Origin: Deltaproteobacteria bacterium
Lineage (GTDB): Bacteria > Desulfobacterota > Dissulfuribacteria > Dissulfuribacterales > QOAL01
Reading direction: 5' to 3'
Length of the DNA stretch: 38,951 bases
Assembly: GCA_024275145.1 (NCBI GenBank)
Contig: JAJRZR010000023.1
Span: 1-38,951 of the forward strand
In this document: positions 20,335 through 27,378 of the stretch, piece by piece
Layout of the letters: each line of letters opens with the position of its first letter
How positions within the stretch are numbered: the first letter of the stretch is position 1
Program-made: the position numbers and the translations under genes
Notes under the pieces: generated by a model
Told to the model about the DNA's origin: nothing
Seen by the model: only the letters and a program-made list of their open reading frames with translations
The model's database searches: none

Positions 20335-20656
20335 AATTCCTGAGGCCCCGGGTTCCTTGCAGGTGTGCCCCCTTAATGGTTCGCCATTTTAAGGCCGATA
20401 TCTATAAAGTGATCTCTATCGTAATTACCACACCCGGCATTTTATTTGGCGTTTTCAGGGCCAACCTGCCATTAAAATGCGGTGTTTTTTCATGTTCTGG
20501 GGTGGTGGACACCAATGCTGAGGACTGCATGGAAGCCGCCGTGAGGATAAATTCTCCCTTACGTACTGCATAGTCATACACCGGGTCCTGATCGATCCGT
20601 GGCCAGCCGCCTGGAGTAGCGGACCCTTTAGCGTGATCAGGGATATACAAGGGCAC
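20335..20656 (+). promoter_or_regulatory. Leader region of the TonB receptor/YfiR/kinase operon
   Basis: About 320 bases without a gene between repeat copy C and the receptor. It holds the terminator-like hairpin at 20431-20490, a TATAAA box near 20403-20408, and an AAGGG ribosome site near 20649-20653. I looked for cobalamin, FMN and c-di-GMP riboswitch cores and did not recognise any. Confidence 0.3.
20431..20490 (+). terminator. Rho-independent terminator or leader attenuator
   Basis: Arms CACCCGGCATTTTA (20431-20444) and TAAAATGCGGTG (20473-20484) pair with a small bulge, and a nested TTGGC/GCCAA stem lies inside. TTTTTT follows at 20485-20490. The structure could end transcription from the MscS gene. 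It is also 170 bases upstream of the receptor gene, so it could act as an attenuator in that operon's leader. Confidence 0.6.
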
Positions 20657-22693
20657 ATGATTCATATAGAAGAGAGGCGCTGCCATGGGATTCTGGAGAT
20701 AGCGGTTGCCATCAAGGCCATTTTGTTTGCCTTGGTGATTTTCCCAGGGGGTGTCGAGGCCTCTGCCGATTATTTTTCCATGGATCTTGAGGAATTGATG
20801 CAGATCAAGGTGACATCTGCATCGAGACGTCCACAGTGCCTTTCCGATGTTGCCGCTGCCATTTTCGTAATTACCCCGGAGGATCTAAGACATTCAGGTG
20901 TGACCAGTGTGCCTGAGGCACTCCGAATGGTACCCGGGATAGAGGTGGCAAGGATAAACAGCTCAAATTGGGCCGTTACCGCCAGGGGGTTCAACAACCG
21001 TTTCGCCAACAAACTATTGGTCCTGATCGATGGGAGAAATATCTATTCCCCTATATTTTCCGGTGTGTCCTGGGAGGAACAGAATCTATTGCTCGACAAC
21101 ATAGAGCGTATCGAGGTCATCAGGGGACCTGGTGGCAGCCTCTGGGGGGTCAACGCCGTAAACGGCGTCATCAACATAATTACGAAGAAGGCACGGGATA
21201 CCCAGAGATATTATGCCCAGGTCGGTGGTGGGACCTATGATAAGGCCTTCGGTGCCATCCGTTACGGTGGCAAGATGGGTCGGGATGCCTTTTACAGATT
21301 CTATCTGAAGGGACTTGACAGGGGTAATTTCAAGACCGCATCGGGCCGGGATGCCAGGGATGGCTGGCAGGATTTCCGGTCGGGCTTCCGTATGGACTGG
21401 AGCCCTATATCAGGTGATATCTTAAGGTCATCGGGGGATTTTAGCCTGGAGACGCTGAATAACAATTACCTCCTGCCCTCCATGTCTCCACCCTATAGCA
21501 AACAGCACCTGAACGATACAGAGGTGCATACAGGAGATCTCCTGATAAACTGGCAACACAAGCTGGTTGGTGCCTCCAGGTTTTCTTTGAAGGGGTATTA
21601 TGACTGGAACCATGCCAATGATTTTATCCTGAGATACAGGACCGAGGCCCTTGATCTAGAGGCGCAGATCTACCTGGCCATGTGGAACAGGCATGATTTT
21701 ACCATCGGGGCCGGTTACCGGCATATCTCAAGCCGGATGCAGGGCTCGTGGTATATTACCTTTGATCCAGAGGTTCAGCAGGATGACATATACAATGCCT
21801 TTATCCAGGATGAGGTCTCCTTCCTGGGGGATAGACTCGCCCTGTATCTTGGCACCAAGATCGAGCACAATCCCTATACAGGCCTTGAGACCCAGCCCTC
21901 GATAAGGCTTCTTTGGAAGGCCAGGGCAAATCAAACCTTTTGGGCTGCCATATCACGTGCAGTTCATACCCCTGACATAGCGACCAGCAGTGCGCACACT
22001 CCAGCCAGCGTCATCCCGCCCAGCTTTCCCTTTCAAAGGCCTGTTACAGTCTATCTCAGAGGTAATAACCACTTTGGTTCGGAGATCCTTTGGGCCTACG
22101 AAGCAGGTTACCGCGCCAGTCCATCTGGAATTTGCAGCCTGGATGTAACCATATACATGAACCGTTACCGTAAACTCCTGATGATAATGCCTGATTCCAG
22201 GCAGCCCGGATTGCTCTTGGCGTATCCCGAATTTTACATAACCGTCCAGAATGGGATGCGTGGAGAGACCTACGGAGCAGAACTGGCCGCCAGATTCAAT
22301 CCGTCTCGTTGGTGGCATCTTCAGGTGGCCTATACCTATGAACGACTTTTCCTGCACAGGGAGCAGGACATTACGACCGGTTATAGTGATGAAGAGCAGG
22401 AAGGCAAGTCCCCAAGAAATCAGTTTTCCCTTCGCTCCAGCATGGGCCTTCCCGGGAATTTGTCGTTCGATGCCTGGCTGAGATACGTTGACAACCTCTC
22501 AGACAGCCATATTCCTGCGTATCTTACCATGGATCTACGTCTTGCCTGGAAACCCCGCGAGGGCCTGGAGTTGGCCCTTGTGGGCCGGAATTTGCTGGAT
22601 AACAGCCATCCGGAATTTGTACCTGAATATCTTCTTACGGAACGCTCCGAGGTTGTCCGCAGCCTTTATGGACAGATAACATGGAATTTTTAA
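20657..22693 (+). CDS. TonB-dependent outer-membrane receptor
   Basis: Beta-barrel receptor of about 678 residues. An N-terminal signal (ILEIAVAIKAILFALVIFPGGVEA) is followed by the short DLEELMQIKVTSASRR segment seen in this receptor subclass. The plug domain follows (LSDVAAAIFVITPEDLRHSGVTSVPEALRMVPGI, then GFNNRFANKLLVLIDGR, then IERIEVIRGPGGSLWGVNAVNGVINIITKKA). The rest is barrel strands ending in a terminal Phe (YGQITWNF), as required for Bam insertion. The frame also opens at GTG 20633; ATG 20657 is preferred for its ribosome site. The ligand is unknown, and no siderophore or cobalamin genes are nearby. It heads a YfiR/kinase/HD-GYP operon. Confidence 0.93.
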   Translation: MIHIEERRCHGILEIAVAIKAILFALVIFPGGVEASADYFSMDLEELMQIKVTSASRRPQCLSDVAAAIFVITPEDLRHSGVTSVPEALRMVPGIEVARINSSNWAVTARGFNNRFANKLLVLIDGRNIYSPIFSGVSWEEQNLLLDNIERIEVIRGPGGSLWGVNAVNGVINIITKKARDTQRYYAQVGGGTYDKAFGAIRYGGKMGRDAFYRFYLKGLDRGNFKTASGRDARDGWQDFRSGFRMDWSPISGDILRSSGDFSLETLNNNYLLPSMSPPYSKQHLNDTEVHTGDLLINWQHKLVGASRFSLKGYYDWNHANDFILRYRTEALDLEAQIYLAMWNRHDFTIGAGYRHISSRMQGSWYITFDPEVQQDDIYNAFIQDEVSFLGDRLALYLGTKIEHNPYTGLETQPSIRLLWKARANQTFWAAISRAVHTPDIATSSAHTPASVIPPSFPFQRPVTVYLRGNNHFGSEILWAYEAGYRASPSGICSLDVTIYMNRYRKLLMIMPDSRQPGLLLAYPEFYITVQNGMRGETYGAELAARFNPSRWWHLQVAYTYERLFLHREQDITTGYSDEEQEGKSPRNQFSLRSSMGLPGNLSFDAWLRYVDNLSDSHIPAYLTMDLRLAWKPREGLELALVGRNLLDNSHPEFVPEYLLTERSEVVRSLYGQITWNF

Positions 22694-22772
22694 TATGGCC
22701 GTATCCTCACGGTAAGATACCAGACCGGACGAGGACTGCCTTCCGTATCTGGTTGCCCCATGGGCTTCAGGT

Positions 22773-23432
22773 ATGTGGTGGTTTGCCCTGATTGCAGATA
22801 CAAGACCTCTAAAAGACAGCATGCTGTGGCCTGAACCCCGCATAGCCTCGGAGGAACGATTAGGACGCATCCCTGGATCGATCCGGATAATTGCCATCGC
22901 CTGGCATCTATTTGTTTTTTCCGTTTTATTTTCATATGGTTCTGGACCAGCCTTTGCGGATCATGACGATGAAACGGTGGAAGAACACCTCATCAAGGCG
23001 GCCTTCGTTTACAATTTCATGAAGTTCGTGGAATGGCCGTCATCCACTAGCGATGGAGGGCCTTCGCTATCCATTTGTATCCTGGGAACAGGACCCATGC
23101 GAGAGGCACTGTTGTCATTGTCCGGCAAGAAGATAGGCGACAGGACGCTCACGGTGGATACCTGCATGGATATGAGAGAACTTAGGGAGTGCGACGTGCT
23201 TTTCATTACTATATCGGAAAAAGGGCGCCTGAATAAGATACTCGATGCGATAAGGGGGGCGAGTATACTTACGATCAGCGACATGGATCATTTTGTCGTG
23301 CGTGGTGGCCTGATAGGGATGATTACAGAAAACAAGAGGATTCGTTTTGCCATAAACTTGAGATCTGCGCGAAGCGCCTCCCTTCGGATCAGCTCCCGTC
23401 TGCTCAAGCTTGCAAGTAAGGTTGTCCAGTGA
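22773..23432 (+). CDS. YfiR-family periplasmic regulatory protein (DUF4154)
   Basis: Secreted protein of 219 residues as opened here. A hydrophobic signal segment ([24 protein letters not shown]) precedes [20 protein letters not shown], the hallmark of YfiR proteins. [12 protein letters not shown], the CDVLFIT strand, [19 protein letters not shown] and the [24 protein letters not shown]-terminus follow. In Pseudomonas, YfiR represses the CHASE8-domain cyclase YfiN from the periplasm; here the adjacent CHASE8-like kinase is the likely target (inference). The stop overlaps the kinase start (TGATG). An ATG at 22821 is an alternative start. Confidence 0.92.
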
Positions 23433-25195
23433 TGCGAAACGGAATGATTGCCCAGGCACTACGCAGGATGAATTTTACGAATAAGCTTACCTTGCTCATG
23501 GTCTTGACCAGTATGCTGGTCCTTCTTTTGGCTGGCAGCACCTTCATGGCGAGCCAGATATTCAATCGTTACGACAGGATGATTGCCGATCTCTCCACGT
23601 TGTGCAGGGTGCTAGGCACTAATTGCATAGCGGCCCTGACCTTCCAGGATCAAAAGGCTGCACAGGAGACCCTGGATAGCCTGAGGCAGGTACCGAGCAT
23701 AAAGGCGGCTGCAATATTCACCGGGGACCTGAGGGCCTTTGCCCTTTATATACAGAGGCCTGGAAAGGGCTTGTCTAAGGAACAGGTCCTGGACCATTTC
23801 CGCAAAGAAATCAAGGGGTGGGGCAACCGAAAGGAATTCATGGGCTTTCTGGGCGCCATAGGGCACAATGACGTGGAATGGGTGGAACCCATACGGTTTG
23901 ACGGTGCCCGGCTGGGTACAATAATCATGTCCAGGGATCTGTCCAGCCTGTATAAAGATGTATTGAGCTTCATCCTGATGAGCCTTTTTGTGTTTTCCCT
24001 ATCTGTAATCTTAGCCTATCTGATTGCAAGGAGGCTTCAGCCCTTCATTTCAGCCCCGGTCCTGGGCCTGGCGGCCAGTATGAAAAAGGTCTCAAGTACG
24101 AAGGATTTTTCAATACGGGCGATGAGGGAGACCGACGACGAGATCGGGGGATTGATAGATGGCTTTAACGAGATGTTGAACCAGATTGAATTGAGGGAAA
24201 AAGAGCTTGAAAAGCATCGCAAGAATCTTGAACTACAGGTGACATTCCGGACCCTCGAATTGTCCGATACGAACAAAAAACTCAGGGAAACGGTAAAAAT
24301 GCTCCACAAGGCAAAGAAGGCGGCAGAGGCTGCAAGCCAGGCCAAGAGCCAGTTTCTTGCCAATATGAGCCATGAAATACGTACGCCACTAAACGGCATA
24401 CTGGGGATGTCGGAGTTGCTTCTTACCACCAAGCTCAGCCCTAAACAGCGTAATCTGGTGGAAACCGCACTAAGCTCAGGTGATGCACTCCTTTCCATCA
24501 TCAATGATATCCTGGATTTTTCAAAGATCGAGGCAGGTCGGTTGGAACTCAAACGCCAGTCGTTCCGGTTGCCCGATCTCGTAGAGGATACGGCCCATTT
24601 GTTCGCTGAAGGCGCCCAGAGGAAGGGCCTCGAGCTGATCTGTCTGTTGGAGGATGATTGCCCGCATACCGTTATGGGCGACCCGGATCGTCTGCGCCAG
24701 ATTCTGATGAATCTTTTGGGAAATGCGGTCAAGTTTACCCTACAGGGTGAATTGTGCTTGAAGGTTGGACTTGAAAAAGGCCGCCCCGGAGGTCGGGTTG
24801 TTTTTCAGGTCAAGGATACCGGGATGGGTATCCATGAAGACAAGATAGGTCTTATATTTGATCCGTTTTCACAGGCCGACAGTTCTACGAATAGAAGGTT
24901 TGGTGGTACAGGCCTTGGCCTTGCCATAGTCAAGGAATTGGTGACCATGATGCAGGGGGACATCGCCGTTGAAAGCCTTCCTGGTCGTGGCACGACGTTT
25001 CGCGTTGCTATCCCCTTTGAGATCCTGAAGGAATCCAGCGCCATGGAACCAGGGGACAACGCCCTTCTTGAGGGGAAGAAAGTTGTTATCATCTCTGACA
25101 ATCCTTCAAATCGTGAGGTGTTCTATCGTTATCTTTCACATTGGGGCCTGGTTTGTAACGAAGCTCCTGCCAACCATTTCCAGGAATTGGACTAG
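23432..25195 (+). CDS. CHASE8-like sensor histidine kinase, N-terminal part of an interrupted hybrid kinase
   Basis: Inner-membrane kinase of 587 residues. TM1 is at about 19-40, then a periplasmic CHASE8-like sensor ([26 protein letters not shown]), TM2 at about 180-200, HAMP and coiled coil (210-300). The HisKA domain has [10 protein letters not shown] (about His314), followed by HATPase_c with NAVKFT, DTGMGI and [10 protein letters not shown]. It then enters a receiver domain ([23 protein letters not shown]) and stops at TAG 25193-25195. The same frame continues after the TAG with the rest of that receiver. The kinase core is intact, so the truncated protein may still autophosphorylate. 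GTG at 23429 is an alternative start. Confidence 0.9.
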
Positions 25196-26311
25196 CCTTT
25201 CGAAGGCGCGGATCTAATAATCGTAGATATCGCCTCCAGTTGTCAGGATCCGGTGCATCATATGGCCAATCTCAGGAAATATATGGGCGAAAAGGTCCCG
25301 GCCATGATAATCGCAGTGCCTGTTTCAGGTATTCTTGAGGGGCTTGGCAATATCCAGACCGGTTGTCTTGTCGAAAAACCTGTCAGGAGGGCCGAGCTTT
25401 ACTCCTGCCTCCGCAGGACCTTGGCGGGGGAAAATGTTTCTGTCTGCGAGAGCCCGGCTGCGAAAGACTACCTGGTTGTAGAGTCTTTCAGGGTTCCAAT
25501 CCTTCTTGTTGAAGACAATACGGTCAATGTGGAGTTTGCCAGGAGTGCCTTGTCATATTTCAAGTGTATGGTTGATGTGGCCCGGGATGGATACGAGGCG
25601 TTGGATGCATGGTCCAAGAGACGGTATGCTCTTATTTTTATGGATTGTCAAATGCCCGGCATGGATGGGTATGAGGCAACCCGAAAGATCAGGGACCTGG
25701 AAAGGAGACAGGATATTCCAAGGACTCCAATAGTCGCCCTTACCGCCCATGCCCTTTCCGGTGACAGGCAGAAGGCCCTTGCCTCGGGTATGGACGATTA
25801 CCTTAGCAAGCCATTCAAGCTTCATCAACTCCAAGAAATGCTACAGAAATGGGCAGGGTGTGACGATAAGTTACCAGGAGATGGGGCCGATGGCATGGAA
25901 CAGGATTTGCTTGGATATGATGCAAGGGCCGGGGATACAGCGGTTTTGGACCTTGCAATGCTTTCGGGCCTCAAGGCCCTTGATACCCCGGAAAATCCCG
26001 GGTTTATGGAGAAGATCGTCGGTATCTTTGTGAAGGATACCCCTGCTATTCTCGACAAGATGAAAGAGGCCAGGGGAAAAGGGGACATGCAGACGTTACA
26101 TCGCCTTGCCCATAGTCTCAAGTCGAGTTCCGCATCCCTTGGGGCCATGCTCTTGTCAGAGCTATGTAAGAAACTGGAAGTCCAGGCCTCGCTAGGTGAG
26201 GTGGAAGACGCTGAGGGCCAACTAGAGCGGATTGAATCCGCTTTCTTTGATGCGAGGGATGCCCTCATAAGGGAATTGGACGGGCTCAAGGCAGGTATAT
26301 CAAATGCCTGA
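25196..26311 (+). pseudogene. C-terminal part of interrupted hybrid kinase: rest of receiver 1, receiver 2, HPt
   Basis: In-frame continuation of the kinase after the TAG. Residues PFEGADLIIVDIASS complete receiver 1, including its likely phospho-Asp. A complete second receiver follows (PILLVEDNTVN, phospho-Asp in FMDCQMPGMDG, VALTAHA, DDYLSKPF), then an HPt domain with its phospho-His in RLAHSLKSSSASLGA. A GTG at 25253, with AGGA upstream, could restart translation. That would give a free receiver-HPt protein of 352 residues lacking the first part of receiver 1. It may be a pseudogene fragment, a split but working phosphorelay, or a read-through product. Domains are clear; expression is not. 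Confidence 0.8.
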
Positions 26312-26328
26312 GTGGTTGCTTACCAGAT

Positions 26329-27378
26329 ATGAGCCAGGGATTTATCAAATCTAGAATACTGGTCGCAGATGACGACATCGTGCAGAGGGCCTTGTTGCGC
26401 ATGATCCTCGAAGGCGAGGGATACGGTATAACCGAGGTGGAAAATGGTCGCGAGGCCTTTGAAATGTTGTCAGAAGATCCTGACCTGAAATTTCTTATAA
26501 CAGATCTGAATATGCCGTTGGTGGACGGTTTTGAGCTGATAAGAAACATCAGGAACAAGGAGGTACGTTATACATATATCATTGTCCTTTCCGCCAGCGA
26601 TGGCCGTGACAGCCTGCTCAAGGCGCTTTCATTGGGGGCGGATGACTATCTCCAGAAACCGGTTCATCCTGAGGAATTGATGTTGAGATTGAAGGCTGGA
26701 GAACGGCTTTTGAAGTTGGAAAGTCATGAGGAATTGATCTTTGCCATGGCAAAGCTCGCTGAATATCGCAGCCCTGAAACCGGCTATCACCTTGAAAGGG
26801 TTTTGCACTATACCAGGGCGCTGGGGCGTGACCTTGCCAGGAATTGTCCCGAGCTCAGAATTACGGCACAGGAGGCAGAGGAAATAGCAAGGCTCAGTCC
26901 ACTGCATGACATTGGCAAGGTTGCCATCAGCGATAGCATATTGAAAAAGACCGGTGCCCTTACAAAGGAGGAATACGAGCTGATGAAGGGCCATACCACC
27001 GCAGGTGGCAACCTCATCAAGGAGATATATGAAAAGACCGGGTCCCCGTACTTAAGATTGGCCTACGAGATCGTCTTGTATCATCACGAAAGGTGGGACG
27101 GAAGTGGTTATCCCAGGGGACTTGCAGGTGAGGAGATACCCCTGAGCGCCCGCATAGTTGCCTTGGCCGATGTCTATGATGCCATAAGCAGCAAAAGGTG
27201 CTACAAGGCGGCCCAGTCACACAACAGGGTCAGGGCTTCGATCATGGAACAGGAAGGGGAACATTTCGATCCCAGGGTGGTTGCGGCCTTTTTAAGGCAA
27301 GAGGATATGTTCGTTTCCATCCAGGAAAGATTTCAGGAACAGGAGTGCATCGATGCCTGCCTTTCAGCAACCCTTTGA
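26329..27378 (+). CDS. Response regulator with HD-GYP c-di-GMP phosphodiesterase domain
   Basis: Cytoplasmic output protein of 349 residues. The receiver domain (1-125) has the acidic ADDD pocket (13-16), phospho-acceptor Asp59 in ITDLNMPLVDG, and Lys110 in YLQKPV. The HD-GYP domain (about 135-335) has the metal-site LHDIGKVAI (His193/Asp194), KGHTTAGG, and the diagnostic HHERWDGSGYP (252-262). It is predicted to hydrolyse c-di-GMP when phosphorylated. It lies 17 bases after the HPt-encoding frame, so it is the natural phosphorelay endpoint of the kinase. All key residues appear intact. Confidence 0.95.
   Translation: MSQGFIKSRILVADDDIVQRALLRMILEGEGYGITEVENGREAFEMLSEDPDLKFLITDLNMPLVDGFELIRNIRNKEVRYTYIIVLSASDGRDSLLKALSLGADDYLQKPVHPEELMLRLKAGERLLKLESHEELIFAMAKLAEYRSPETGYHLERVLHYTRALGRDLARNCPELRITAQEAEEIARLSPLHDIGKVAISDSILKKTGALTKEEYELMKGHTTAGGNLIKEIYEKTGSPYLRLAYEIVLYHHERWDGSGYPRGLAGEEIPLSARIVALADVYDAISSKRCYKAAQSHNRVRASIMEQEGEHFDPRVVAAFLRQEDMFVSIQERFQEQECIDACLSATL

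Follow-up and report, generated by a model that had tools for sequence, protein, structure and literature searches.

Hybrid histidine kinases of the BarA/ArcB type, which have two receivers and a C-terminal Hpt domain, carry a membrane sensor, HAMP, HisKA, HATPase_c, receiver(s) and Hpt in one frame, and their first receiver is degenerate. Established phosphorelays also include Hpt domains on separate proteins. The kinase that we analyzed here is encoded in a window of 38,951 nucleotides (the whole stretch of DNA under study), located on contig 5. The draft genome comprises 120 contigs totaling 2.65 Mb, with completeness rated at 100% and contamination at 0.58%. The kinase resembles the BarA/ArcB-type kinases in domain composition, including the degenerate first receiver, but differs from them in its CHASE8 sensor, in its neighbors (a YfiR-like gene and a gene for an HD-domain response regulator) and, in the deposited sequence, in a TAG codon within the first receiver. 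What this locus shares with pyrrolysine or suppressor-tRNA decoding is a TAG in frame within a gene that is intact elsewhere; unlike in such systems, neither pylS/pylB nor a tRNA with a CUA or UUA anticodon was found in this genome, TAA codons are involved as well, and the site is absent from the congener. A further comparison is offered by false stops that stem from sequencing or assembly errors in draft genomes, among them G to T errors from guanine oxidized during sample handling, which raises the G:C to T:A class in a sample-specific manner (PMC6417284). As in those errors, unrelated single-copy genes are hit here by single-base changes absent in relatives, most of the inferable ones being G:C to T:A; unlike the documented errors (PMC6417284), the one proposed here is deduced from a pattern.

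The earlier note had described a TAG at 25193–25195 that splits the hybrid kinase within its first receiver, and this description held. Indeed, the frames 23432–25195 and 25253–26311 are in register, the intervening bases are open and read PFEGADLIIVDIASSCQDP, and the TAG, codon 588, is the sole interruption of a frame that encodes 959 residues when read through, in the domain order CHASE8-HAMP-HisKA-HATPase-REC1-REC2-Hpt (Table 1). In the read-through protein, Pfam detected CHASE8, HAMP (slightly under the Pfam cut-off), HisKA with its phospho-acceptor His (E 1.1e-24), HATPase_c (E 2.3e-30), one Response_reg domain and Hpt. The first receiver (about residues 549–665) was not detected by Pfam and was seen by homolog alignment, in which 'SDN' replaces the acidic pair and the conserved Thr is absent, while the Asp of 'IVDIA' and the Lys of 'EKP' are retained; the TAG occupies a variable loop ahead of strand 3 of this domain. 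REC2 and Hpt share the kinase frame but sit behind the TAG; in the congener and in other relatives, a receiver with a phospho-acceptor Asp and Hpt belong to one polypeptide. Given that the frame runs for 371 codons past the TAG with REC2 and Hpt intact and that its dN/dS is low (see below), a frame interrupted in this way is not a product of chance.

Table 1. Features of the hybrid kinase locus, with positions in the window.
Feature	Position	Strand	Basis
YfiR/HmsC-like (DUF4154) periplasmic protein gene	22773..23432	+	Pfam PF13689, E 4.5e-42
Hybrid histidine kinase gene, one in-frame TAG, 959 aa read through	23432..26311	+	Frame and Pfam
CHASE8 periplasmic sensor domain	23588..23926	+	PF17152, residues 53–165
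HisKA and HATPase_c kinase core, ahead of the stop	24341..25021	+	PF00512, residues 304–369; PF02518, residues 416–530
First receiver, degenerate, split by the TAG	25076..25426	+	Homolog alignment
In-frame TAG, codon 588; CAG (Gln) in congener	25193..25195	+	Sequence and congener alignment
GTG, proposed restart codon; GTA in congener	25253..25255	+	Congener alignment
Second receiver (REC2), intact	25499..25843	+	PF00072, residues 690–804
Hpt phosphotransfer domain, intact	26015..26263	+	PF01627, residues 862–944
Response regulator with HD domain (HD-GYP-like), next gene	26329..27378	+	PF00072 and PF13487

The kinase is preceded by genes for a TonB-dependent receptor and the YfiR-like protein, whose TGA overlaps the kinase ATG (TGATG), and is followed by the gene for the HD-domain response regulator. 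This cluster of TonB receptor, YfiR-like protein, CHASE8 hybrid kinase and HD-domain response regulator (20633–27378) could plausibly form a cyclic-di-GMP signaling unit, and the HD-domain response regulator, judging from its position next to the kinase, is the probable output partner.

We compared the kinase with that of the congener (G001, the single other genome of the genus in the comparison; records WFZW01000112 and WFZW01000192), in whose draft a contig end breaks the gene at residue 272. The two proteins are 81% identical, and the congener has no stop: as the residue expected at the TAG, which the earlier note had proposed to read from homologs, it supplies a glutamine encoded by CAG. 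Relatives within the family have uninterrupted kinase frames of about 920–995 residues (921–995) with the same architecture, and none of the aligned homologs carries a stop or a restart at the site, so that the stop at codon 588 is not conserved as a programmed one would be. Relative to the congener, dN/dS was 0.085 before the stop and 0.17 behind it, with 0.059 for REC2 alone and 0.052 for the kinase core. Judged by these ratios, purifying selection on REC2, which lies behind the stop, is equal to that on the kinase core, and relaxed selection past the TAG was rejected (0.06 for REC2 versus 0.05 for the core). This pattern implies that translation of the part behind the stop ceased only very recently or continues.

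A search of the genome for kinases exposed an internal TAG in another receiver gene, and this led us to survey the assembly for stops within genes. This receiver/PAS/HisKA gene (contig 54, 54400–56000, minus strand) has its in-frame TAG behind the strand of the phospho-Asp, and its frame also shifts by +1 within a stretch of seven G; it is intact in the congener and is here either a pseudogene or the site of two errors. For the survey, a dicodon model was trained on the genome's long frames, stops with coding-like sequence in the same frame on both sides were listed, and mid-gene stops were told from ordinary gene boundaries by eye from these lists. Over about 1.36 Mb of non-redundant sequence, roughly half of the assembly, and with an IS3-like transposase remnant left out, 12 mid-gene TAG or TAA codons emerged, the kinase TAG included. 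Six of them are TAG (in the window kinase, PntB, the response-regulator/kinase gene, an ABC ATPase, glycogen synthase and biotin carboxylase) and six are TAA (in TrmFO, SecA, PurL, an ATP-binding kinase-like protein, another hybrid kinase and an outer-membrane protein). The genome contains no second copy of secA, purL, trmFO, pntB or glgA. At 10 of the 11 sites other than the kinase TAG, the congener has a sense codon (GAG, GAA, GAC, AAA, TCA or GGA), and at the glgA site GAT was found in a more distant relative (G009), the sole relative readable there. The same survey applied to 0.98 Mb of relatives (0.26 Mb of the congener, 0.40 Mb of others and 0.32 Mb of a closed genome of the order) returned no mid-gene TAG or TAA. 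The assembly, at about 0.9 mid-gene TAA/TAG per 100 kb, is therefore above its relatives, and the probability that all 12 would fall in this genome under equal rates is 0.0015. The affected genes are unrelated and include essential ones, and the rate of such disabling point changes is elevated in this assembly.

One of these sites is in secA. A conserved Glu of the 'HHEREA' motif, which is also Glu in solved SecA structures, is encoded by GAG in the congener and replaced by TAA in the only copy here. As secA is essential in bacteria, a real stop in its only copy is not credible, which leaves an erroneous sequence or translation through the stop. Across the set of sites, we infer faulty bases rather than dead genes.

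From this pattern across genes, we consider the kinase TAG to be probably a single-base consensus error of the draft assembly. The earlier note had listed a recent mutation, a split phosphorelay and an assembly error as possibilities; assembly error is favored over mutation, because at least 11 other mid-gene TAG/TAA codons occur in the assembly, that of the single-copy secA among them, and none in the surveyed relatives, while the split was not supported. This decisive evidence lies beyond the window, which was all that the note had to go on. The kinase gene would then be one ordinary hybrid histidine kinase from which the cell most likely makes a single 959-residue protein, with phosphate presumably passing from HisKA to REC2, then to Hpt and on to a separate response regulator, and the TAG would be one of many base errors in the assembly, with no biological role.

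The kinds of change involved bear on this reading. For the eight sites at which the change could be inferred, six are G:C to T:A. The congener codon is one step from the stop at 6 of 11 sites, which is what changes falling on random codons would give in genes whose codons are 58% identical. A missense comparison with the congener in conserved contexts, which has low power, did not show G to T in excess (2 versus 2), and an excess of A to T (9 to 1) was not significant when the number of classes was allowed for. Frameshift junctions were balanced between the genome and the congener (5 versus 4, duplicates included), and the idea of an indel-rich assembly was rejected on this count. Apart from the missense comparison, three points run counter to a base error. 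First, the congener codon implies C to T at the kinase, unlike the G to T changes at most other sites, even though the codon of this species before the change could have been GAG instead of CAG. Second, the kinase gene is not essential, so that a truly broken gene could be at hand. Third, a genome rated 100% complete and 0.58% contaminated is not obviously a poor assembly. If a consensus error is indeed the cause, the kinase TAG as such is probably of no biological importance, and its value lies in a warning: nonsense codons that look false occur about once per 100 kb in this assembly, so that reads are needed before any split gene or sign of recoding in it is believed.

The main rival to a consensus error is a genuine recent nonsense mutation from CAG to TAG that disabled the relay half of the kinase in the sequenced population, a possible but rather doubtful explanation. 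It would leave, as the upstream product, a membrane-bound kinase whose receiver is broken, with REC2 and Hpt untranslated. The TAG is a single transition away from the CAG of the congener, the kinase is presumably non-essential in a genome with dozens of kinases, the purifying selection seen behind the stop fits a very recent loss, and another signaling gene, that on contig 54, combines a TAG with a +1 shift of frame at its G run. However, the excess of mid-gene stops is assembly-wide and extends to the single-copy genes secA, purL, trmFO and pntB, and their absence from the 0.98 Mb of relatives indicates that genuine nonsense alleles occur less often than the apparent errors in this assembly.

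Very unlikely, in our view, is a functional split, raised in the earlier note, in which a kinase ending within the first receiver would work with a REC2-Hpt protein of 352 residues whose translation restarts at GTG 25253, phosphate being passed in trans. The AGGA ahead of this GTG is present as claimed (25245–25248, four bases before the GTG), the second frame contains REC2 and Hpt complete, and separate Hpt proteins have the precedent mentioned above. The homologs, however, neither stop nor restart at this position, and the GTG at 25253 and the ATG at 25262 are replaced in the congener by GTA and ATA, which excludes a conserved restart. Moreover, the cut lies inside the receiver fold, so that neither product would possess a whole first receiver.

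The least probable explanation is that TAG and TAA both serve as stop and sense codons here and that full-length protein is made because they are partly, if rarely, read as an amino acid, probably Glu or Gln, by for example an ochre-type suppressor tRNA missing from the assembly; we give it hardly any credence. Such a tRNA, if it existed, would explain the intact genes with internal TAA or TAG, secA included, and should the stops exist in the living cell, the 12 sites together would argue strongly that a free-living bacterium suppresses stop codons. All 12 mid-gene stops are TAA or TAG, with no TGA outside selenocysteine sites, as a tRNA with a UUA anticodon would yield, but codon usage alone predicts TAA or TAG at 79% per site, which puts the probability of 12 out of 12 at 0.055. 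Where these stops stand, the congener mostly has Glu, Asp, Gln or Lys; no mid-gene stop of this kind occurs in 0.26 Mb of its own sequence. Against suppression also stand the presence of RF1, with a match well over the cut-off, and the use of TAG and TAA as common terminators (235 and 228, respectively, of 869 long frames in the surveyed stretches). No CUA or UUA anticodon occurs among the 36 tRNAs found, a set that is incomplete (Tyr, Asn and Ile, for example, are absent), and a genome-wide pattern search for a CUA/UUA anticodon loop followed by a T loop returned only tRNA-Arg(TCT) and chance matches; a suppressor tRNA was rejected on this basis, although with an incomplete tRNA set its absence is not absolute. 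The search for pyl genes that the earlier note had suggested gave best PylS and PylB matches far below the cut-off, as in control genomes without Pyl, and with no pylS or pylB above it, pyrrolysine was likewise rejected. The note's own judgment that recoding is unlikely, since TAG is a normal stop in this DNA, is thus borne out, TAG ending about 27% of genes.

In-frame TGA codons in the surveyed sequence were confined to selenocysteine sites that are conserved in relatives. Two of these, both on the complement strand, lie in an Hdr-like CCG-domain protein ('YYINTE*GHMFY') and a peroxiredoxin ('FTFV*PTE'); the TGA is conserved in relatives in both genes, and comparison with these relatives suggests that they are likely selenocysteine codons. 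A third is found in an ABC transporter substrate-binding protein (BtuF/FecB-like) on contig 98 near 31.3 kb ('GAS*MEITLERF'), where the TGA is conserved in the congener and likely specifies selenocysteine in an unusual protein class (metal or cobalamin substrate-binding). That the Hdr-like and substrate-binding TGA codons are errors was rejected, given their conservation in relatives. As the selenocysteine codons pass the test of conservation in relatives, the survey method does recognize true recoding, and a gene for a SelB-like elongation factor is present in the genome.
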